A stretch of DNA of 12,399 nt, taken from Bacteroidia bacterium. GTDB lineage: Bacteria; Bacteroidota; Bacteroidia; Bacteroidales; UBA12481. The notes under the pieces were generated by a model. It was not told the origin of the DNA. It did not search any database and saw nothing but the letters and a program-made list of their open reading frames with translations. Below are positions 1,768-11,079 of the stretch, piece by piece. Every line of letters starts with the position of its first letter. The stretch's first letter is position 1. The DNA lies in contig JAPLDV010000603.1 in the NCBI GenBank assembly GCA_026391235.1, positions 1 to 12,399 on the forward strand, given 5' to 3'. Made by a program: the position numbers and the translations under genes.

Positions 1768-2132
1768 CAATTCGAGGTTTATCGTTAGTCTTTCTCAGTG
1801 CCTTTATTACTGTGGCGGCCAATCTAATGCTCCGTGCCGGTGTCGATAGGGCGGGTGTTTTCCCTGCGCAATTCCAAACGGTGTCCAATGCAATCGCAAG
1901 ATTGATGTCACAACCATTATTTTTATATGCGATGGCAGTTCTACTATGGTTTTACGTGATTTCCACGGAGCCACTTAGCGTCGCCTATCCCCTTTTAGTC
2001 AGTTTGACATTCATTTTCGTGACGCTCGGAGCAATCGTTGTCTTTGGTGAAGCGCTGACCCTCCCCAAAGTTGTTGGAATGCTGATCATCCTGATCGGCA
2101 TTATAATAGTAGGCAGGGGTAAATTATTATGA
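1764..2132 (+). CDS. SMR/EamA-type four-helix membrane protein (ArnE/ArnF-like flippase subunit?)
   Basis: A 122-residue hydrophobic protein with four predicted helices at about 5-25, 50-66, 70-95 and 99-117. The pattern A-Y-P-L-L ... F-G-E-A-L-T-L-P-K-V-V-G-M-L-I-I-L-I-G belongs to the small multidrug resistance/EamA group. The middle segment ending P-L-S-V-A-Y-P-L-L resembles ArnE/ArnF, which flip undecaprenyl-phosphate aminoarabinose in lipid A modification. The membrane-embedded Glu of drug-exporting SMR proteins is absent from helix 1, which argues against drug efflux. ATGA overlaps tie it to both neighbours, and the operon also encodes a polyprenyl-phosphate sugar transferase (8501) and a GT-C transferase (11125). 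I infer that it flips the lipid-linked sugar. ArnE/F act as a pair; only one gene is seen here, so it would have to form a homodimer or use a partner elsewhere. Confidence 0.75.
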   Translation: MTIRGLSLVFLSAFITVAANLMLRAGVDRAGVFPAQFQTVSNAIARLMSQPLFLYAMAVLLWFYVISTEPLSVAYPLLVSLTFIFVTLGAIVVFGEALTLPKVVGMLIILIGIIIVGRGKLL

Positions 2133-3136
2133 TCGGCATCGGTGTCATTGGTTATGGCTATTGGGGGCCCAATCTCGTCAGGAACTTTTCGGAAGTCTCT
2201 GGATCGAAAGTCATCGCAGTCAGTGATCTGAGATCCGAAAGGCTCGCGTTGGCAAAGAGCCGCTATCCAACGATCAAAACTATGACTAATTGCCATGATC
2301 TGATTGCCGATCCGGCAATTGACGCAGTTATAATCGCTACACCGGTTTCCACGCATTTTGATCTTGCAATGCGGGCGCTGGATATGGGTAAGCACGTCCT
2401 AGTGGAAAAGCCGATGACGGCAACCGCTGAACAGGGAATCCGTTTGATCGAAAGGGCACGAAAAACAAATCGTGTTCTTTTGGTAGATCACACATTTATC
2501 TACACGGGGGCTGTGCGCAAAATGAGGGAATTTATTCAAAATGGTGAGCTGGGAGAAATCTATTATTATGACTCTACGCGTGTAAATCTTGGGCTTTTTC
2601 AACACGACGTCAGCGTAATATGGGATCTTGCCGTTCACGATCTTTCGATTCTTGATTATGTGTTGAGAGTTCAACCTGTCGCAGTTTCAGCTACCGGTAT
2701 AAACCATGTAAGCAATGCGCCAGAAAACGTGGGATACATGACCTTGTTTTTCAATTCATCCCTGATCGCACATATAAATGTAAACTGGCTTTCACCCGTA
2801 AAATTACGCCTGACCATGATCGCGGGGAGCAGGAAGATGATCGTCTTTGACGATCTTCAACCCAGCGAGAAAATCAAGGTCTACGACACCGGTATCACGG
2901 TCAACAAACAACCTGACAATATTTACGATATGCTCATTGGGTACCGCACGGGCGATATGTGGGCACCACGATTCGACACAACAGAAGCTCTGAGGGCGGA
3001 AGCGCTTCACTTTATTGATTGTATCGATACAGACCGCGATCCTGACACAAACTGCGAAATGGGCCTGCGGGTGGTACGGATACTTGAAGCCGCCACGAAA
3101 TCGATCAGAGATAAGGGGCAATTGGTTGCTCTGTAA
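2129..3136 (+). CDS. Gfo/Idh/MocA-family sugar-nucleotide oxidoreductase
   Basis: 335 residues, normal for the family. The N-terminal NAD-binding loop is G-x-G-Y-W-G-P-N (8-15), the E-K-P motif is at 93-95, and the C-terminal beta-sheet domain starts near 120. The catalytic-type motif W-D-L-A-V-H-D is at 165-171 with His170. In glycan loci such enzymes (WbpB/WlbA type) oxidise C3 of a UDP-sugar so that a PLP enzyme can aminate it, and the acetyltransferase at 1273 plus the aminotransferase at 3182 fit that role. WbpB-type enzymes use a UDP-N-acetyl hexuronate; no UDP-GlcNAc 6-dehydrogenase is in this window, so the substrate must come from elsewhere or be different. ATGA overlap upstream, 45-base gap downstream. 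Confidence 0.88.
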   Translation: MIGIGVIGYGYWGPNLVRNFSEVSGSKVIAVSDLRSERLALAKSRYPTIKTMTNCHDLIADPAIDAVIIATPVSTHFDLAMRALDMGKHVLVEKPMTATAEQGIRLIERARKTNRVLLVDHTFIYTGAVRKMREFIQNGELGEIYYYDSTRVNLGLFQHDVSVIWDLAVHDLSILDYVLRVQPVAVSATGINHVSNAPENVGYMTLFFNSSLIAHINVNWLSPVKLRLTMIAGSRKMIVFDDLQPSEKIKVYDTGITVNKQPDNIYDMLIGYRTGDMWAPRFDTTEALRAEALHFIDCIDTDRDPDTNCEMGLRVVRILEAATKSIRDKGQLVAL

Positions 3137-3181: not shown

Positions 3182-4312
3182 ATGAACGAACCTATTCATT
3201 GCATGGATTTGAAACGACAGTATTTAACTATCCGAGAGGAAATTTTATCGGCGCTCTCCGCCGTTTGCGAAAAGACAGCCTTTTCCAGTGGACCGTTCGT
3301 TGAAGAATTTGAGAAGAATTTTGCCGATTACTGCAATGTTTCATTTTGTACAGCCGTTAATAGTGGCACCTCCGCCCTTCATCTGGCTCTGATCGCCGCC
3401 GGAATACAGTCTGGAGATGAAGTAATTGTTCCAGCCAATACCTTTATAGCGACTGCATGGGCTGTTTCTTATGTGAATGCCACCCCTGTTTTCGTTGACT
3501 GCACATCCGACACCTGGAATATTGATCCCCAGAAAATCGAAGAAAAGATAACAAAAAAGACCAAAGCGATCATTGGTGTTCACTTATATGGCCAGCCTTT
3601 CGATGTCGATGCCGTAAAATTGATTGCTGATACTCATAAATTGATAATGATTGAGGATTGTGCGCAAGCGCATGGTGCAATTTACAAAGATCAGAAAGTA
3701 GGCGGATTTGGTGCGCTCGGCTGTTTCAGTTTCTATCCCGGAAAAAATCTCGGCGCATATGGTGAAGGCGGCGCAATCGTTACCAACAATGAAGATTTCG
3801 AACGACGCATTAAAAGCCTACGCAACCATGGCTCGACGATCCGCTACCATCACGAAGAACTGGGCTTCAATATGCGGATGGATGGATTTCAGGGTGCTGT
3901 CCTGAATGTAAAACTGAAATATCTCGATTCGTGGAATAAACGACGCAGAGAAATTGCCCGAATGTACCAAGAAAGAATCAAAAATGATAAAATCCGGGTG
4001 CAAGCTCAACCTTCCTGGACCTCGTCCGTTTACCACCTTTTCGTCGTTACGGTGGATGATAGAGATCATTTCATGCAGTATTTGCAGGAGGGGAAAATAT
4101 TTTGTGGTTTGCATTACCCGATATCTTGTCATCTTCAGAGAGCATACAGTCACTTGGTATACAAGAAGGGGGATTTACCAAATGCAGAGTATTTGGCTGA
4201 TCATTGTGTTTCACTACCGATGTTTCCGGAACTGAATGATGAAGAAGTAAGTAAAGTCGTTGATGTAGTTAATAAATACACGAAACTTCAAAAACCCAGT
4301 ATGTTTAAATAA
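3182..4312 (+). CDS. DegT/DnrJ/EryC1/StrS aminotransferase 1
   Basis: A 376-residue fold-type I PLP enzyme that transfers an amino group, usually from glutamate, to a keto-sugar nucleotide. Visible features are the N-terminal D-L-K-R-Q-Y, the cofactor phosphate region N-S-G-T-S-A-L-H-L-A-L (60-70), I-E-D-C-A-Q (157-162, with the pyridine-binding Asp159 and Gln162), and F-S-F-Y-P-G-K-N-L-G-A with the Schiff-base Lys188. The start is supported by AAGAGGA at 3172-3178, five or so bases before the ATG. It follows the oxidoreductase that would supply its 3-keto substrate, so WbpE/WlbC/FdtB-type C3 amination is the best guess. It ends one base before the unrecognised gene at 4314. All key residues are present. 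Confidence 0.9.
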   Translation: MNEPIHCMDLKRQYLTIREEILSALSAVCEKTAFSSGPFVEEFEKNFADYCNVSFCTAVNSGTSALHLALIAAGIQSGDEVIVPANTFIATAWAVSYVNATPVFVDCTSDTWNIDPQKIEEKITKKTKAIIGVHLYGQPFDVDAVKLIADTHKLIMIEDCAQAHGAIYKDQKVGGFGALGCFSFYPGKNLGAYGEGGAIVTNNEDFERRIKSLRNHGSTIRYHHEELGFNMRMDGFQGAVLNVKLKYLDSWNKRRREIARMYQERIKNDKIRVQAQPSWTSSVYHLFVVTVDDRDHFMQYLQEGKIFCGLHYPISCHLQRAYSHLVYKKGDLPNAEYLADHCVSLPMFPELNDEEVSKVVDVVNKYTKLQKPSMFK

Positions 4313-4313
4313 T

Positions 4314-5348
4314 ATGCTTTTTCAAACTCCTGACTTGGATTTAAGACGTTTATCTGTCCTCTGTAGTATGGAAATTGATCGATGTCAATTAGATTTATCC
4401 GGAAGTGTTGTCATCACTGAAGCTGCTACCGGGTCTTATGTTGTCACACCTGTTATAGCTGCTATGGCCGGTGCAAAACATGTATATGCATTTACCAAGT
4501 CAACCACTCACGGTACTGTAGATACGGTTATTCAACAGACCATGGCTTTAGCCGAAATTGCACATGTTAAGGGGAAAATCGATATTGTTACAGAAAAGGA
4601 AAAAGAAATAATTGCCAGAGCAGATATAATTACAAATAGTGCACATTTAAGACCGATTGATTCAATAATGATCCAATGGATGAAACCGACAGCCGTAATA
4701 TCTTTAATGTATGAAGCATGGGAATTTCGCGAAAGTGATTTAGACCTGGATAGTTGTAAAATAAAGAATATAATTGTTGGAGCAACGAACGAGCGTCATG
4801 CTTCAATCGATGTATTTTCTTACTTGGGAATTATGGCTATTAAGTTATTGACCGATGCCGGTATCGCTGTGTATGGCAGTCATATTTTGTTATTATGTGA
4901 TAATAATTTTGAATCTTACATCTCAAAAAGTTTAATAAATGCAGGTGCAAAATTAGATGTTAAAGAAAAATTATATGCCAAAAATAATTCATATCTAAAT
5001 TATGATGCAATTTTAGTTGCTTTGAAGCCAAGAGATAATTTCATTTTTGCTGAAAGCGACATAAACTTTATTGCTGAAAAACTAACAACAACAATTATTA
5101 TTCAGTTTTGGGGAGATATCCAGCGGGAAGAAATGAGAAAAAGAAACATTTTATTCTGGCCAATAAGTAATGTTGAAAAGGGGCACATGGGTATCTTACC
5201 GTCTAATATTGGCCCAGAACCCATAATTAAACTTCAGACGGGTGGATTGAAGGTTGGGGAACTTCTCTGGCGATATAGAAAGTCGGGTGAGACTGTGAAT
5301 GAAATAATTAAGCGATTAGAGGCATCTGGATATGGAGAAGGTCTTTAA
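4314..5348 (+). CDS. Unrecognised two-domain protein in a glycan operon
   Basis: I do not recognise this 344-residue protein. It is soluble, with no signal peptide or membrane segment. It appears to hold two Rossmann-like alpha/beta units. The first runs from about 30 to 160 and begins S-V-V-I-T-E-A-A-T-G-S-Y-V-V-T-P with a H-V-Y-A-F-T strand after it. The second runs from about 183 to 300 and begins G-I-A-V-Y-G-S-H-I-L-L-L-C-D. Neither has a classical GxGxxG dinucleotide loop. The C-terminal stretch G-I-L-P-S-N-I-G-P-E-P-I followed by L-Q-T-G-G-L-K-V-G-E (294-316) looks like a conserved functional loop. It starts one base after the aminotransferase stop and is followed 24 bases later by the LpxD-like gene. 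Both are AT-rich relative to their neighbours. A role in making or carrying the acyl group, or in a further sugar-nucleotide step, is a guess from position only. Confidence 0.8.
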   Translation: MLFQTPDLDLRRLSVLCSMEIDRCQLDLSGSVVITEAATGSYVVTPVIAAMAGAKHVYAFTKSTTHGTVDTVIQQTMALAEIAHVKGKIDIVTEKEKEIIARADIITNSAHLRPIDSIMIQWMKPTAVISLMYEAWEFRESDLDLDSCKIKNIIVGATNERHASIDVFSYLGIMAIKLLTDAGIAVYGSHILLLCDNNFESYISKSLINAGAKLDVKEKLYAKNNSYLNYDAILVALKPRDNFIFAESDINFIAEKLTTTIIIQFWGDIQREEMRKRNILFWPISNVEKGHMGILPSNIGPEPIIKLQTGGLKVGELLWRYRKSGETVNEIIKRLEASGYGEGL

Positions 5349-5372
5349 TCTTGGAAGAATTGAGATAGAATA

Positions 5373-6263
5373 ATGTTATTATCAGAAATTACAAGAGAAA
5401 TTCAGATAAGAATTATTAGGGATGGAGAATTTGAGTCGTTAGGTTTGCTATCACATACGGCAAGAAAAATGCTCGTTGTATTATACGATCTTAATTATTT
5501 GGATGTTCTTAAAAGAAATAAAAACATATCGTGCGTTGTTACGTCTGATCCTATTGTAGAATTAATTCCACCAGAGTTGTCCGTTGCCGTAAGTGATAAC
5601 CCACAAATGATCTTTTATGACATTCACAAGTATTTATTTAAATATACTGATTTTTATTGGAAAGATTTCCGTACTGAAGTTTCACCCGATGCTTTAGTCC
5701 ATGAAAAATCTTACATTGCACCCAAAAATGTAAAAATAGGGCATGGTACAATAATCGAACCGGGTGTTTGTGTTTTAGGGCGATCACTAATAGGTAAAAA
5801 TGTTATAATTCGGGCAAATAGTGTTATCGGGGGCGAAGGTTTTGAACCCAAAAACATAAATGGAAAACATACAATGATACCGCATGCAGGTGGCGTTTGT
5901 ATTGGTGATAGAGTTGAAATTCAGTCAAATACGCATATTGCCAAATCCGTCTTTGGTGGATTTACTACCATAGGTGCAGACACGAAAATTGATGCTTTAG
6001 TTCACATTGCACACAATGTAGTAATTGGCGAGAGGTGCGAAATAGTAGCATGTTCATTGATAGGTGGTAGTTCAATAATTGAAGAAGAAGCCTATATTGG
6101 ACCAAATTCGACTATTTCAAGTGAAATAAAAGTAGGAAAGAGAGCGGTTGTAACATTAGGTGCGGTTGTAACAAGAGATGTTCCAGAAGATACAAGAGTT
6201 AGTGGGAATTTCGCTATAGACCATAATAAATTAATAAAATTTATCAAAAAATTAGATGAATAA
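5373..6263 (+). CDS. LpxD-like N-acyltransferase (left-handed beta-helix)
   Basis: A 296-residue protein with the two-part plan of LpxD, which N-acylates UDP-3-O-acylglucosamine in lipid A synthesis. The N-terminal uridine-binding-like domain covers about 1-100 (V-V-T-S-D-P near 55-60, V-A-V-S-D-N-P near 71-77), and hexapeptide turns fill 101-275. V-I-G-G-E-G-F (151-157) matches the LpxD A-D-G-F loop region, and H-I-A-H-N (211-215) keeps the catalytic His214. It ends V-T-R-D-V-P-E-D, then a short Lys-rich helix, shorter than typical LpxD (about 340). With no lipid A genes nearby and a sugar operon around it, I infer acylation of an amino sugar for a surface glycan. The start has only a weak GAGA element 8 bases upstream. 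Confidence 0.82.
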   Translation: MLLSEITREIQIRIIRDGEFESLGLLSHTARKMLVVLYDLNYLDVLKRNKNISCVVTSDPIVELIPPELSVAVSDNPQMIFYDIHKYLFKYTDFYWKDFRTEVSPDALVHEKSYIAPKNVKIGHGTIIEPGVCVLGRSLIGKNVIIRANSVIGGEGFEPKNINGKHTMIPHAGGVCIGDRVEIQSNTHIAKSVFGGFTTIGADTKIDALVHIAHNVVIGERCEIVACSLIGGSSIIEEEAYIGPNSTISSEIKVGKRAVVTLGAVVTRDVPEDTRVSGNFAIDHNKLIKFIKKLDE

Positions 6264-7296
6264 TTTAATGCAAAAAAAGAAATCACAACTAAAATTTGAT
6301 TCACCATCAATTATGGTTACTGGTGGTGCCGGTTTCATTGGGTCAGAATTGACACGGCAGTTGGTGTGCCACGGATTTCATACAATCGTCATCGACAGCC
6401 TCATTAATGGAAAACAAGAGAATATAGCAGATCTAATCGGAAAAGGTGCAGATCTGATTATCGCAGATATTCGAGATGAAGCTGAAATCGATAAACTGAC
6501 GAAACAAGTAGAGGTAGTTTTCCATCTGGCTTGTCTCGGCGTGAGACATTCCATTCACGATCCATTGGAAAATCATGATGTCAATGCAACGGCAACGCTA
6601 AAACTACTCAGTGCTTCAAGGAGAAATGGTGTTAAAAGATTCATCTACATTTCTAGTTCGGAGGTGTATGGAACTGCTAAATGGGTACCAATGACCGAGG
6701 AACACCCCACATCGCCAAATACGGTTTACGGCGCTTCAAAACTTGCTGGCGAATGTTATACCCGTGCCTTTTTTGAAACATACGAACATCCTACAACTGT
6801 CATTCGGCCTTTTAACACTTACGGACCCAATTGCCATCATGAGGGCGATAGCGGTGAGGTGATCCCTAAATTTTTATTGCGAACACTTGCCGGACTTCCG
6901 ATGATCGTCTTTGGAAACGGAAAACAAACACGCGATTTTACTGAAGTTACCGACACGGCACGGGGGATCATAGAATGCGGTTTACATGAGAAAGCCATAG
7001 GACAGACGATTAATATCGGCGGTAGTCATGAAGTATCGATCGATGAACTGGCGTCGCACGTTTCCAAGATGATTGATGGACAGAGCAGTGTCATCCACGA
7101 ATCGCCACGTCCCGGAGACGTACTGAGGCTTTATGCGGATACCACAAAAGCTTTACAGTTGTGCGGTTTCAAACCGAATATCTCTTTGCAGGAAGGGTTA
7201 CAGAAACTCAAGAACTGGTATCTTAGCACCGGCATTTCACCTCAGGAACTTCTAAAGACTGAAATTGTAAAGAACTGGGAGATGTTTCCAAAATAA
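6256..7296 (+). CDS. Extended SDR sugar-nucleotide epimerase/dehydratase
   Basis: 346 residues with the NAD loop T-G-G-A-G-F-I-G at 22-29, S-S-S-E-V-Y-G at 133-139, the catalytic Y-G-A-S-K with Tyr158 and Lys162, and R-P-F-N-T-Y-G-P further on. This is a complete extended short-chain dehydrogenase acting on a nucleotide sugar. The R-P-F-N and S-E-V-Y-G motifs are shared by 4-epimerases, UDP-xylose synthase and the ArnA decarboxylase domain, so I cannot choose the reaction. The start overlaps the LpxD-like gene by 8 bases; a second in-frame ATG at 6268 would avoid the overlap. Base composition becomes more GC-rich soon after its start. The second aminotransferase follows with a 1-base overlap, suggesting that it aminates this enzyme's product. 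Confidence 0.87.
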   Translation: MNNLMQKKKSQLKFDSPSIMVTGGAGFIGSELTRQLVCHGFHTIVIDSLINGKQENIADLIGKGADLIIADIRDEAEIDKLTKQVEVVFHLACLGVRHSIHDPLENHDVNATATLKLLSASRRNGVKRFIYISSSEVYGTAKWVPMTEEHPTSPNTVYGASKLAGECYTRAFFETYEHPTTVIRPFNTYGPNCHHEGDSGEVIPKFLLRTLAGLPMIVFGNGKQTRDFTEVTDTARGIIECGLHEKAIGQTINIGGSHEVSIDELASHVSKMIDGQSSVIHESPRPGDVLRLYADTTKALQLCGFKPNISLQEGLQKLKNWYLSTGISPQELLKTEIVKNWEMFPK

Positions 7297-8504
7297 TGAA
7301 CGATATGCAAAGGTTCATTCCTATAGCCAAACCCTGGATGGATGAACGCGAAGCCGATGCGGTGGCACGCGTCATTGCTTCCGGCTGGATTACCCAGGGG
7401 CCGGAGGTGGCTGCTTTCGAGAAGGAATTCGCCGCTTATGTTGGTGCACCTTATGCCTGCGCCGTGTCAAGCTGCACAACCGCCCTTCACCTTGCCCTGC
7501 TTGCCGTTGGTATCAAGCCTGGTGATGAAGTAATCACTGTAAGCCATTCCTTCATTGCTACAGCAAATAGTATCCGCTATTGCGGTGCGCTACCGGTTTT
7601 CGTGGATATCGAACCGGACACTTTCAATCTGAACCCTTCACTGATTGAAGCGCTGATCAACGATAAGACCAAAGCCATTCTATGCGTGCATCAACTGGGT
7701 ATGCCGTGCAATCTTGACGCTATCATTGACATCGCTCGAAGGCACAACTTATTTGTTATTGAGGACGCGGCCTGCGGAATTGGCAGTGAAATCAGTTGGC
7801 ACGGTAAATGGGAAAATATCGGGAAACCTCATGGTGATATTGCCTGCTTCTCCTTTCATCCGCGAAAATTACTCAGCACAGGGGATGGGGGTATGCTGAC
7901 AACGGCAAATGATGAATGGGATCATCAATTCCGTTTGTGGCGACAGCACGGCATGAGCGTTCCAGATACTATTCGGCATGGGGCGAAGGAAATCATCTTG
8001 GAATCTTATCCATGTGTCGGTTACAATTACCGCATGACTGATGTGCAGGCGGCAATGGGTCGTGAACAACTTAAAAGATTGCCGGAAATCGTTGCGAGGA
8101 GGAGAGAAATGGTCAAACGTTATCGGACGCTGTTGAGTGAAGAAATTCCAGACATTGGATTGCCTTTAGAACCCACATGGGCAAGAAGCAACTGGCAGAG
8201 CGTCTGCGTGCGGTTGCCGGAACGGGTGAATCAGATAACCGTGATGCAAGAGATGCTCGATGCTGGAATAGCAACCCGACGGGGAGTTATGTGCGCCCAT
8301 CGAGAAGAGCCCTACAGTCACGGAACTTGGTCATGTGGAAAAGGACCCGGCCCATGCGAATGTGAACCGGGACGATGTGCCAGGCTTACCGAAAGCGAAA
8401 GGGCGCAGGATCGCTGCATAATTTTACCATTATATCATCAAATGACGGAAGATGATCAACACAGAGTCATTACGACCCTGAAAAAATCTTGTGTGCGTAT
8501 ATGA
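7296..8504 (+). CDS. DegT/DnrJ/EryC1/StrS aminotransferase 2 with a Cys-rich C-terminal insert
   Basis: A 402-residue PLP aminotransferase clearly different from the first. The cofactor region is S-S-C-T-T-A-L-H-L-A-L (58-68), Asp157 lies in V-I-E-D-A-A-C, and the Schiff-base Lys191 is in F-S-F-H-P-R-K. A Cys sits where many relatives have Gln or His after E-D-A-A. Near the C-terminus a segment C-G-K-G-P-G-P-C-E-C-E-P-G-R-C (347-361), plus Cys374, carries five cysteines. I recall a related P-G-R/A-C-A-R-L-x-E-S-E-R-A-Q-D stretch in a subgroup of DegT enzymes, but the extra cysteines could bind a metal or form disulfides. TAATG junction with the SDR upstream. Likely C4 or C3 amination of a keto-sugar nucleotide; the substrate is unknown. 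Confidence 0.9.
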   Translation: MNDMQRFIPIAKPWMDEREADAVARVIASGWITQGPEVAAFEKEFAAYVGAPYACAVSSCTTALHLALLAVGIKPGDEVITVSHSFIATANSIRYCGALPVFVDIEPDTFNLNPSLIEALINDKTKAILCVHQLGMPCNLDAIIDIARRHNLFVIEDAACGIGSEISWHGKWENIGKPHGDIACFSFHPRKLLSTGDGGMLTTANDEWDHQFRLWRQHGMSVPDTIRHGAKEIILESYPCVGYNYRMTDVQAAMGREQLKRLPEIVARRREMVKRYRTLLSEEIPDIGLPLEPTWARSNWQSVCVRLPERVNQITVMQEMLDAGIATRRGVMCAHREEPYSHGTWSCGKGPGPCECEPGRCARLTESERAQDRCIILPLYHQMTEDDQHRVITTLKKSCVRI

Positions 8505-9484
8505 CAAGACCCGATATGCTGTTGACGATCATCACTCCTGCATACAACGAAGCCGGTAATATACCCCTTCTATATCAGCGAATTGAAAAGGTTCTGAAAG
8601 ATGAAATGATCGATTGGGAGTGGATCATTATTGATGATCATTCTCAAGACGATTCATTTAAAGTCATTTCGCAGATCGCTCAGCAGGATACCCATGTTAA
8701 AGGTATACGACTGGCGCGAAATGCAGGTTCCCATACGGCTATCAAATGCGGGCTGGATTTCTGTCAGGGTAATTGCACCGTTGTTATGGCGGCCGACCTT
8801 CAGGATCCACCTGAAACAATCCCCGATCTCATTAGCAAGTGGCAACAAGGGGCGAAGGTTGTCTGGGCCGTTCGAGAACAGAGGCAGGGAGAAAAAGCCA
8901 GCACCATTGGGTTTTCTCGTCTTTATTATTTTCTTATGAGAAAAATTGTTGGTATCCGGGAAATGCCGCCCACAGGGGCGGACTTCTTTCTCATAGATAC
9001 GCAAGTCATTGCTGCCTTGAAGCAATTCAACGAAGCACACGTTAGCCTTCTGGCATTAATCACTTGGCTGGGTTTTCAGCAGGATTTCATTACCTACAAT
9101 AAGGAAGCAAGGGAGTACGGAAAATCTGGCTGGACGCTTAAGAAAAAATTGAAATTGCTGGTCGATTCTATCACCGCCTTCAGTTACTTTCCCATCCGTT
9201 TCATGAGCTATTTGGGTTTCCTGATCGCAATGTGCGGCTTTATCTATGCCACCGCTGTTTTAGTTAATAGTCTTGCGGGTAGGCCAATTCAAGGATGGGC
9301 ATCATTAATGGTAGTTGTCCTTGTTATTGGGGGTATGCAAATGCTCATGCTCGGAATATTGGGGGAGTATTTATGGCGCGCACTCGATGAGAGTAGAAAA
9401 AGGCCAAGATATGTAATTGAGAAACAATTAATTGGCTGTACGAATCGGATGCGAAACAAGGAGAACATATCTTTAGCTGACTGA
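8501..9484 (+). CDS. GtrB/ArnC-like polyprenyl-phosphate glycosyltransferase (GT2)
   Basis: 327 residues. The GT-A domain starts L-L-T-I-I-T-P-A-Y-N-E (7-17), has the nucleotide-binding I-I-I-D-D-H-S (42-48) and the A-A-D-L-Q-D-P-P-E motif (97-105; acidic pair at 99 and 102), and is followed by two membrane helices at about 235-257 and 266-290. The tail R-K-R-P-R-Y-V-I-E is typical of GtrB/ArnC/DPM-type enzymes, which move a sugar from a nucleotide to undecaprenyl phosphate on the cytoplasmic face. I place the start at ATG 8501, which forms an ATGA overlap like other junctions in this operon. An upstream in-frame TTG at 8489 is a weaker alternative. It would load the sugar for the flippase at 1764 and the GT-C enzyme at 11125. 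Confidence 0.9.
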   Translation: MTRPDMLLTIITPAYNEAGNIPLLYQRIEKVLKDEMIDWEWIIIDDHSQDDSFKVISQIAQQDTHVKGIRLARNAGSHTAIKCGLDFCQGNCTVVMAADLQDPPETIPDLISKWQQGAKVVWAVREQRQGEKASTIGFSRLYYFLMRKIVGIREMPPTGADFFLIDTQVIAALKQFNEAHVSLLALITWLGFQQDFITYNKEAREYGKSGWTLKKKLKLLVDSITAFSYFPIRFMSYLGFLIAMCGFIYATAVLVNSLAGRPIQGWASLMVVVLVIGGMQMLMLGILGEYLWRALDESRKRPRYVIEKQLIGCTNRMRNKENISLAD

Positions 9485-9569
9485 CCCAAGATGACCCGAG
9501 AAAGGTCCCTGATGAATTATAAAATGGGTGAATCGTGAGCAGAATAAGTGACAAACGAATTATTGAGTC

Positions 9570-9574
9570 AGGAG
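9570..9574 (+). promoter_or_regulatory. Ribosome binding site that sets the radical SAM start
   Basis: AGGAG ends 8 bases before ATG 9583. The in-frame GTG at 9535 has no comparable element, and the 16 extra residues it would add do not resemble the family N-terminus, which begins right at M-R-P-N-V-L-L-I-N-P. Confidence 0.75.
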
Positions 9575-9582
9575 AAAAAACC

Positions 9583-11079
9583 ATGCGTCCGAACGTTCTT
9601 TTAATAAACCCAAGCATTGGGAATGCATCGCAGAATAAGAGGATTAATCGAGTTGTTGGAATTACATTCCCGACAAGCATTGGGATACTGGCGGGATGCT
9701 TGATGGCATCTGGCATAGATGTCCGGATCTTGGACGAGCAAATTTCTCCCCTATCCAAATCGGATTTGCTTCATCTGATCAATTCTATGCAGATCCCGCG
9801 AATCGTTGGGATTAGTGTTTTGACGCTCAATTCCAGCCGTGCTTATGAGATAGCAAAGCAGGTCAAGCAAGTGGATCCCTATGCAACGGTGGTGTTGGGT
9901 GGTATTCACCCGACTGTTGCTTTGGACGAGGCGCTTCATGCCGAAGGGGTGGACCTGATCGTTCGGGGCGAGGGGGAAGATACATTCCTTGAGTTAGTAC
10001 AACTCATTCTTCAGGGCAAGGAATATAAGGGAATAAGCGGCATTTCTTTTTCATTGGACGGAAAAACCATCCATACCCCCACTCGACCATTCATAGACAA
10101 TCTGGACTCAATCCCACCGATGCCGTATCACCTGTTCGAAACAGACATCCTTCGGTATCCCGGTTTCTCAACTGTTGTGGGATCGCGCGGCTGTCCGTAT
10201 TCATGTTTGTTTTGCTCATCTAGAAGCATTTCAGGCAAGAAGTATCGTTTTCACTCGGTTGACCGGGTTGTACAAGATTGTACTACATTGATTCGTAAAT
10301 ACAAACAGCAATCCGTCTTTTTCACCGACGACAATATCGCTGTCGATCGTCAGCATTTTATCGAGCTCTGTGACGCATTGACCAAAGAGGGACTCCACAA
10401 GGAGGCATTCTTTCACGCCTCTATGCGGGCTGACAATGCGACTGACGAAATCTTGGAAAAAGCGCGTGCGACCAATTTCAAAATGATCTACTTTGGTTTT
10501 GAAACCGGCGTTGAACGGCTGATGAAGATTATTGACAAACGCGAGACAGTTACCCAAGTCGTAGAAGCTATTCAAAGGGCTCATCGCGCGCATATATCGG
10601 TCGGCGCGACTTTGATATTTGGTTTGCCCACCGAGACAAGGAGAGATAGATATGACACAATCAAGCTTGCCAACTCTTTGCCACTCGATTCGATTCGTTT
10701 CAATACGCTGGTTCCATACCCCGGCACTCCAGCCTACAAGATGCTGGCCCCGCAGGGGAAAATACTCATTAAAGGCTGTTGGGAGAACTTTGGGGTACAA
10801 TATATGTGGGAAAGTGATGACATTCCCTATGTACCGGATGAAAGTAACCGCATTGAGCTGATTTTTGATACGATGTATGCCAACTTGTCATATTATCTCG
10901 CCCCCAAAGGGATCAGTAAACTCCTCAAATCACCTGTTGCTGGCGGCAACGTCATCAAGCTAAAAAAACATTGGTTTCTCTCATTACAGGAACTGTACAA
11001 GATGGGCAGTGTCTTTACCTATCTTTTCGGTCGGTTCCTGAGCGTAGCAGCCAGAATGTTGTGGGCTAAAGTTTTCTAA
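9583..11079 (+). CDS. B12-binding-type radical SAM enzyme
   Basis: 498 residues. Residues 1-150 form a cobalamin-binding-like domain (N-V-L-L-I-N-P start, V-V-L-G-G-I-H-P near 103-110, R-G-E-G-E-D-T near 128-134). The radical SAM domain covers about 190-420 and its [4Fe-4S] motif is C-P-Y-S-C-L-F-C with Cys204, Cys208 and Cys211 (CxxxCxxC). No DxHxxG lower-ligand motif is seen, which is common in BchE/HpnJ-like members. The family includes methyltransferases, ring-closing enzymes and dehydratases, so the reaction is open. Placed between a polyprenyl-phosphate sugar transferase and a GT-C enzyme, it may modify the sugar, the lipid carrier or the acceptor lipid. Strong AGGAG at 9570. It lies 98 bases after the GT2 gene with no terminator between. 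Confidence 0.87.
   Translation: MRPNVLLINPSIGNASQNKRINRVVGITFPTSIGILAGCLMASGIDVRILDEQISPLSKSDLLHLINSMQIPRIVGISVLTLNSSRAYEIAKQVKQVDPYATVVLGGIHPTVALDEALHAEGVDLIVRGEGEDTFLELVQLILQGKEYKGISGISFSLDGKTIHTPTRPFIDNLDSIPPMPYHLFETDILRYPGFSTVVGSRGCPYSCLFCSSRSISGKKYRFHSVDRVVQDCTTLIRKYKQQSVFFTDDNIAVDRQHFIELCDALTKEGLHKEAFFHASMRADNATDEILEKARATNFKMIYFGFETGVERLMKIIDKRETVTQVVEAIQRAHRAHISVGATLIFGLPTETRRDRYDTIKLANSLPLDSIRFNTLVPYPGTPAYKMLAPQGKILIKGCWENFGVQYMWESDDIPYVPDESNRIELIFDTMYANLSYYLAPKGISKLLKSPVAGGNVIKLKKHWFLSLQELYKMGSVFTYLFGRFLSVAARMLWAKVF

Follow-up and report, generated by a model that had tools for sequence, protein, structure and literature searches.

An unnamed family of two-domain Rossmann-like proteins paired with changing modifying transferases in sugar-nucleotide operons

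Positions 4314–5348 (+ strand) of the window, the 12,399-nucleotide stretch of Bacteroidia DNA analysed here, encode a 344-residue protein, hereafter T, which represents a new family within a known fold and has a strong and testable genomic context. Our survey of loci supports the view that T and the gene following it, here termed partner X, form a two-gene cassette whose X type changes repeatedly. Recomputation of the open reading frame, which begins with ATG, returned exactly the limits given in the first-pass annotation. The gene is as tightly packed as described there, with a gap of 1 base after the end of an aminotransferase gene (4312) and of 24 bases before the start of an LpxD-like acyltransferase gene (5373).

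The protein had been presented as one without a nameable family, and the searches bear this out. The sole Pfam match is noise (PF21097, E = 0.13), no NCBIfam family matches at E ≤ 1, and no PDB sequence is found at E ≤ 10, either with phmmer or with a 120-sequence profile. Since 2,707 proteins match T at E ≤ 1e-3 (the window’s own entry counted), it is not a chance reading frame. All named entries among the best 120 of these are called “hypothetical protein”. Relatives occur in Cyanobacteria, Bacteroidetes, Actinobacteria, Planctomycetes, Proteobacteria and candidate phyla such as Omnitrophota. The family is therefore large and widespread and so far has no name; in the open-licence PMC literature neither a description nor a name was found, although it may be in print elsewhere. 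The proposal of an undescribed family within a sugar-nucleotide operon is thus supported. Some cyanobacterial-type members (L001 9800–11023, P0007 and P0018; 407–409 residues) carry an N-terminal extension, which by eye resembles partial repeats of the protein’s own N-terminus.

The window contains one plus-strand run of sugar-nucleotide genes. Upstream of T lie hexA (1273–1767), a hexapeptide acetyltransferase of 164 residues; a small membrane protein (1764–2132, 122 residues), weakly TMEM234/EamA-like but below both cut-offs, which we take to be ArnE/F-like; GFO (2129–3136), a GFO/IDH/MocA oxidoreductase whose best NCBIfam match, UDP-GlcNAc 3-dehydrogenase, is below cut-off; and DegT1 (3182–4312), a DegT/DnrJ/EryC1 aminotransferase with QdtB (PDB code 3frk) as its closest solved relative. 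Partner X (5373–6263) is a hexapeptide acyltransferase of 296 residues. We term it LpxD-like, and not LpxD, because its score of 143.2 bits against TIGR01853 is below the equivalog cut-off of 242.5. It is followed by Epim (6256–7296), an SDR protein of the epimerase/dehydratase/decarboxylase type (best NCBIfam match LegB, below cut-off), a second DegT aminotransferase, DegT2 (7296–8504), which is PseC/perosamine-synthase-like, and a PgfS/ArnC-like glycosyltransferase, GT2 (8489–9484), with NCBIfam matches below cut-off. A B12-binding radical SAM protein (9535–11079) ends the run; all these genes are on the + strand. In their content of aminotransferase, formyltransferase and ArnC/PgfS-like GT2, the Arn and N-formyl sugar pathways (ArnA, ArnB, ArnC) resemble the T operons; to our knowledge, the Arn pathway has no T-like protein.

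An AlphaFold model of T (pLDDT 95.6) comprises two Rossmann-like domains and, together with PDB fold matches, supports the architecture suggested at first. Among solved structures, those of SAH hydrolase, dipicolinate synthase A and D-2-hydroxyacid dehydrogenases come closest in fold, with 8–14% identity; the best matches have 11–13% identity and a TM-score of about 0.55, and the best 50 matches listed in each whole-model comparison with the PDB are NAD(P)-type enzymes. A strong full-length match to a characterised family had been named as the outcome that would overturn the case for a new one; the fold matches of the model are at the superfamily level only. With SAH hydrolase (PF05221) T shares the two-domain fold over its full length, but the two are 12% identical, PF05221 gives no T match at E ≤ 1 and is absent from the families matched by 30 members, and the NAD loop of the hydrolase (consensus GYGDVGKG in ten aligned sequences) is replaced by CDNxF, which reads CDNNF in the window. 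The profile–profile comparison that had been recommended was run against SAH hydrolase with hhalign and gave probabilities of 8.0% and 5.8%, both alignments being shallow. Subunit A of dipicolinate synthase (DpaA/SpoVFA) likewise has the fold of T, yet it is 11–13% identical, its glycine loop is missing in the window’s clade, its family PF16924 is not among the T matches at E ≤ 1, and it belongs to a lysine-pathway context whereas T belongs to a sugar context. From the D-2-hydroxyacid and formate dehydrogenases, clades A and B of T (see below) differ by the missing glycine loop. The window protein has no Pfam match to PF00389 or PF02826; PF00389 gives weak matches to 4 of 30 members (best E = 0.004), and PF02826 matches one of ten clade C proteins scanned (E = 0.0017, 18.2 bits against a cut-off of 25.1).

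Three clades, mutually only about 30% identical, were compared: the window’s own clade A (119 listed sequences aligned), clade B (the best 120 of 789 relatives found with the distant member L080) and clade C (the best 120 of at least 558 relatives found with L118); the three search sets may overlap. Eighteen of the 50 tallied positions are kept at ≥ 91% in each clade. A core of T35, E36, T107, N108, R113, P114, M132, E134, W136, E137, R139, E160, G267 and K313, 91–100% conserved per clade, is proposed for the family and is present in the window protein (T35 E36, T107 N108, R113 P114, M132xE134xW136E137xR139, E160, G267, K313). Most of it lies in domain 1 (residues 24–185; 4383–4868, + strand), which holds all of these residues up to E160; the comparison of this domain used 57 of 78 references and the window, with L037 left out of the references. 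In domain 2, the first strand runs LLCDNNF in the window, and residues 195–199 (CDNNF; 4896–4910, + strand) occupy the site of the glycine-rich NAD(P)-type loop of distant relatives. The lack of a GxGxxG loop, noted at first for the window protein, is confirmed and extends to all of clade A (0/119) and clade B (0/120), yet 67 of the 120 clade C sequences have the motif. In clade A the loop is C-D-N-x-F, with C195, D196, N197 and F199 at 98–100%; in clade B it is mostly S-[DSN]-D-x-F after a tryptophan; and in clade C it is glycine-rich, with G at position 195 in 100%. On the simplest reading of these sequences, the loop would have been lost from an NAD(P)-binding ancestor, the family tree being unrooted. 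With the NAD loop kept in one clade and absent from the other two, the family is an example from nature of a dehydrogenase-like fold whose core stays fixed even where the cofactor loop is missing. The C-terminal stretch 294–316, singled out earlier as a conserved loop, is indeed conserved in 30 aligned sequences (invariant L295, S297, G300, P301, L307, Q308, G311, K313 and E316), and in the AlphaFold model it runs from a loop into a helix (301–323). Two distant relatives, L117 8489–9637 (– strand; loop GGGFTG) and L118 8497–9591 (+ strand; loop GGALTG), adjoin a WbmS-like deacetylase gene, identified by its BLAST label in L117 and confirmed as PF22537 in L118.

To describe the slot after T, we assembled 84 T loci: 80 kept from the 89 relatives of a genome profile scan, the window, locus L081 of the nearest available genome and two plasmid records. 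They include many near relatives (Nostocales, Chitinophagaceae). T was located by tblastn, as simple longest-ORF calling misses it in 12 of 81 loci. Partners were labelled by BLAST to representatives taken mostly from such slots, with Pfam support for the representatives. A PF00551-type formyltransferase lies in the stretch behind T in 51 loci, an LpxD-like protein in 9, a FemAB-type protein in 5, another hexapeptide protein in 4, a GNAT protein in 3 and a methyltransferase in 2; ten loci have no gene of these types there. In three of those ten (L028, L054, L061) the contig ends too soon for the slot to be judged, and the other seven (L024, L034, L040, L063, L071, L073, L083) have no capping gene 3′ of T; a GNAT gene (PF00583) precedes T in L024, and L083 has a formyltransferase five annotated genes upstream on the other strand. 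Another gene stands between T and its partner in 4 of the 74 loci with one (L013, L025, L044, L045), which leaves 70 of the 81 loci that can be assessed with a modifying transferase immediately after T. The suggested neighbourhood survey for LpxD-like genes was part of this work; such a gene is directly next in 8 of the 84 loci, the window included. Behind T, L044 carries a gene with a weak methyltransferase match that stays below cut-offs, a gene of NeuD type, an ORF without a name and another ORF similar by eye to the FemAB-type ORF of L045. As separate observations, an ATP-grasp protein (L071 2246–3283; PF15632, 101 bits) is next after T in L071 and precedes an ORF that is HAD-like by eye; in Bradyrhizobium, a 2OG-Fe(II) oxygenase (L035 3917–4801; PF13640, 54.5 bits) lies just 5′ of the T–formyltransferase pair, and an ORF of the same cluster (L039 3252–4133) is found at the same place in a second genome.

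A second sample of 395 genomes, spread evenly over the class to which a Chitinophagaceae genome belongs, contained 15 with T, from which 11 loci were fetched (one, L124, is very likely the same record as L055). In 10 of these 11 the gene after T is an acyl- or formyltransferase; of the remaining genes on these stretches, 9 of 143 are of this type. In a phylogeny of 81 T proteins, from which L082 and L083 are absent, 17 changes among six partner types were counted over 70 rows. For the formyltransferase label there are 11 changes, as compared with 25.1 in shuffles, a clustering which means that partner exchange is not free; the LpxD-like label has no clear clustering (7 against 7.7). T is thus constant while its partner type changes repeatedly, though not freely.

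Clusters that lack T indicate what otherwise fills this place. A sample of 291 genomes from the class to which a Nostoc genome belongs contained 6 with T and 21 with GFO (orthologue threshold E ≤ 1e-70); GFO accompanies T in five of the six, and T is missing from 16 of the 21. From these 16 genomes 12 loci were fetched, four genomes not being fetched. In L089–L093 the order is hexA, GFO, DegT1, a hexapeptide acetyltransferase (Hex38), Epim and DegT2; L098 is arranged likewise, a 226-residue hexapeptide protein filling the slot; L096 is rearranged, L095 has no gene in the slot, and L097 and L099 are only partly readable. The DegT1–Epim slot of L094 holds an ISL3-family transposase (5143–6296; PF01610, PF14690). 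A Hex38 homologue (≥ 45% identity over ≥ 150 residues) occurs in none of 23 cyanobacterial loci with T and in 8 of 11 without, the latter being the fetched loci less L101. In Bacteroidetes, a PglD-type acetyltransferase (≥ 35% identity to that of L104, which is above the TIGR03570 cut-off) is present in 0 of 24 loci with T (L054, L076 and L079 left out) and in 5 of 12 without. These 12 were taken from 15 DegT1 loci with no adjacent T, and one of them, L103, comes from a genome with a distant T on another contig. There are exceptions, namely L044, which bears T together with a NeuD-type acetyltransferase above the NCBIfam cut-off, and the divergent T loci L117–L120, which contain genes labelled PglD-like. 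The PglD/NeuD-type and Hex38 N-acetyltransferases occupy the corresponding slot as a functional counterpart and not as a homologue, since they belong to the unrelated hexapeptide-repeat family and are a single gene as against T plus X.

Trees of the cyanobacterial core enzymes, with 21 of the 23 loci with T and 9 without entered (rows were lost for one GFO, one DegT1, two DegT2 and one hexA), require 6, 6, 5 and 6 changes between the two labels for GFO, DegT1, DegT2 and hexA, respectively. These counts were reached by 41 to 116 of 500 shuffles, and the starred branches force only 3, 1, 1 and 2 changes. The Epim tree, which kept 2 of 9 rows without T and 17 of 21 with T, was unused. Cluster and tree counts alike include close relatives and are not independent. 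We read these data as a core that makes the same amino-sugar nucleotide with or without T, for which T plus X and a single acetyltransferase are alternative endings. Two T-less loci, L105 and L108, whose genomes are not among the T-bearing ones, have a formyltransferase directly after DegT1. The formyltransferases of these loci share 57% identity between themselves and 26–34% with T-linked ones, which themselves form at least two lineages about as far apart as L105/L108 are from them. It follows from these loci that T is not needed for formylation as such, and a requirement of T for any formylation is thereby ruled out; a supply of the formyl donor by T is ruled out by its LpxD-like, GNAT, FemAB and methyltransferase partners.

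T can also stand apart from the core operon. It does so in four Bradyrhizobium genomes, in three of which a formyltransferase adjoins it, and all four carry GFO (56–57% identity), DegT1 (47–49%) and DegT2 (61–62%) elsewhere; in one (G003) the core cluster DegT2–Epim–DegT1–hexA–GFO (L084) is on the same contig about 18 kb from T. Of 10 genomes searched in which T is distant or isolated, 5 have no GFO at E ≤ 1e-30 and all 10 have DegT2 at E ≤ 1e-60, so the substrate of T need not be the same everywhere. Distant T is found with Epim, DegT2 and an asparagine-synthase-like amidotransferase in L080 (where the last is PF00733), L100, L114, L116 and L122, and directly 3′ of a WbmS-like deacetylase gene in L117–L119; PF22537 is confirmed for the copies of L118 and L108. 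Given these differing neighbours, and as GFO is not always present, the substrate may differ between T clades. In L100 (8972–13729) a divergent T is followed by a formyltransferase and further genes, presumably WbpG-, HisH- and HisF-like; L114 has the same gene order, with 53–58% identity to the L100 genes.

Our leading, though tentative, explanation is that T acts on the amino-sugar nucleotide just before, or together with, capping of the amine by X, and does so by a redox-neutral remodelling. The position in the pathway is the firmer part: T very probably works on the amino-sugar nucleotide immediately before or with capping, because T is constant, X varies, the cassette sits in the acetyltransferase slot and the core enzymes of both cluster types are intermixed. 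In such a scheme GFO, DegT1, hexA, Epim and DegT2 would make the amino-sugar nucleotide; T would take the free-amine form before X and remodel it by acid–base chemistry in the cleft between its two domains; and the acceptor altered in this way would require another capping enzyme, the variable X, which would cap the amine with a formyl group, an acyl group or another substituent. As to the chemistry, an isomerisation or epimerisation is put first because the family can do without the NAD loop but keeps its domain 1 core, but taken by itself it is a doubtful assignment. If ring carbons C2–C4 all bear nitrogen, few positions would be left for an epimerase. Also counted against the explanation as a whole are the formyltransferases of L105 and L108, the acetyltransferases of L044 and L117–L120, the clustered formyl label and the few forced branches. 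The two functions offered in the first-pass annotation fare unequally, as an uncharted sugar step fits better than acyl loading, the reaction itself being a prediction.

Among the alternatives, the building of a two-part N-substituent by T and X is unlikely but has several points in its favour. T would join an amino acid, or a similar small unit with an amine of its own, to the amine of the sugar, and X would cap the new amine. This would explain why the X families are unrelated and extend to FemAB proteins and methyltransferases, why two genes are found where others have one acetyltransferase, the gene content after T in L044 and the WbmS-like deacetylase gene directly 5′ of T in L117–L119. 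We know of no enzyme of this fold that forms amides, and T has no match to an ATP-, CoA- or tRNA-binding family in Pfam or NCBIfam. Also in its favour, formylation and amino acids are reported as modifications of the terminal O-antigen sugars of Bordetella (PMC7504554). The Bordetella wbm genes were considered because a WbmS-like gene adjoins some T; the passages of PMC3849452 and PMC7504554 consulted describe no T homologue among them, and no Bordetella name is among those shown for 360 listed T homologues, most entries being nameless. Somewhat less probably, T would be an NAD(P)-dependent oxidoreductase whose dinucleotide loop is altered and whose type is that of D-2-hydroxyacid dehydrogenase, SAH hydrolase or dipicolinate synthase. 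The listed NAD(P)-type fold matches, the GxGxxG motif of clade C and the weak PF00389 matches all lend themselves to this view, but the loop is missing from every clade A and clade B sequence aligned, and the residues that replace it in clade A are nearly invariant.

If T were instead an N-deacylase that frees the amine, for example from an N-acetyl group, and X re-acylated it in the manner of LpxC and LpxD, the LpxD-like partners and the tight pairing with N-acyltransferases would be accounted for. We regard this as improbable, since T matches no deacetylase family in Pfam or NCBIfam, would be redundant beside the WbmS-like deacetylase of L117–L119, and should find a free amine already supplied by DegT2. 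The missing NAD loop of clades A and B would also suit a non-catalytic, scaffolding partner of X or of the aminotransferases, yet so many positions are kept across clades of such low mutual identity, and the X families beside T are so unrelated, that a role of this kind is very improbable. We give almost no credence to the earlier idea that T makes or loads the acyl group for the LpxD-like enzyme. T does adjoin an LpxD-like gene in the window and in seven other loci, but a formyltransferase follows far more often, and T also stands beside hexapeptide, GNAT, FemAB and methyltransferase proteins with differing usual donors; the idea is rejected because the partner type changes repeatedly.

As for the product of the core, we take the window’s gene set to fit 2,3,4-triamino sugar pathways. 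A triamino sugar was considered that would resemble 2,3,4-triacetamido-2,3,4-trideoxy-L-arabinose, which is a constituent of the Psychrobacter cryohalolentis O-antigen (PMC8040287). More speculatively, and with little probability, T may found an enzyme class, an offshoot of the SAH hydrolase/dipicolinate synthase fold without the NAD loop that adds a spacer to, or rebuilds, a highly amino-substituted sugar nucleotide; if true, the class would be a general, unrecognised diversification module for bacterial surface amino sugars. T acting ahead of capping, as in the leading explanation, would explain how many bacteria may diversify the amino sugars of their surface glycans, the capping enzyme being swapped behind a constant step, and solving one member would annotate the whole family.

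Two short genes form a unit upstream of the operon: positions 408–590 of the window match the HicA toxin (PF07927, 33.5 bits, cut-off 27), and the ORF that follows (595–816) is HicB-like by eye, with no Pfam family. Tandem Repeats Finder located repeats of 9-base period, of the type ATAAACNNN, at 90–186 and 816–859. Repeats of this type flank the HicA-like unit on both sides, the first stretch being inside an ORF at 79–411.
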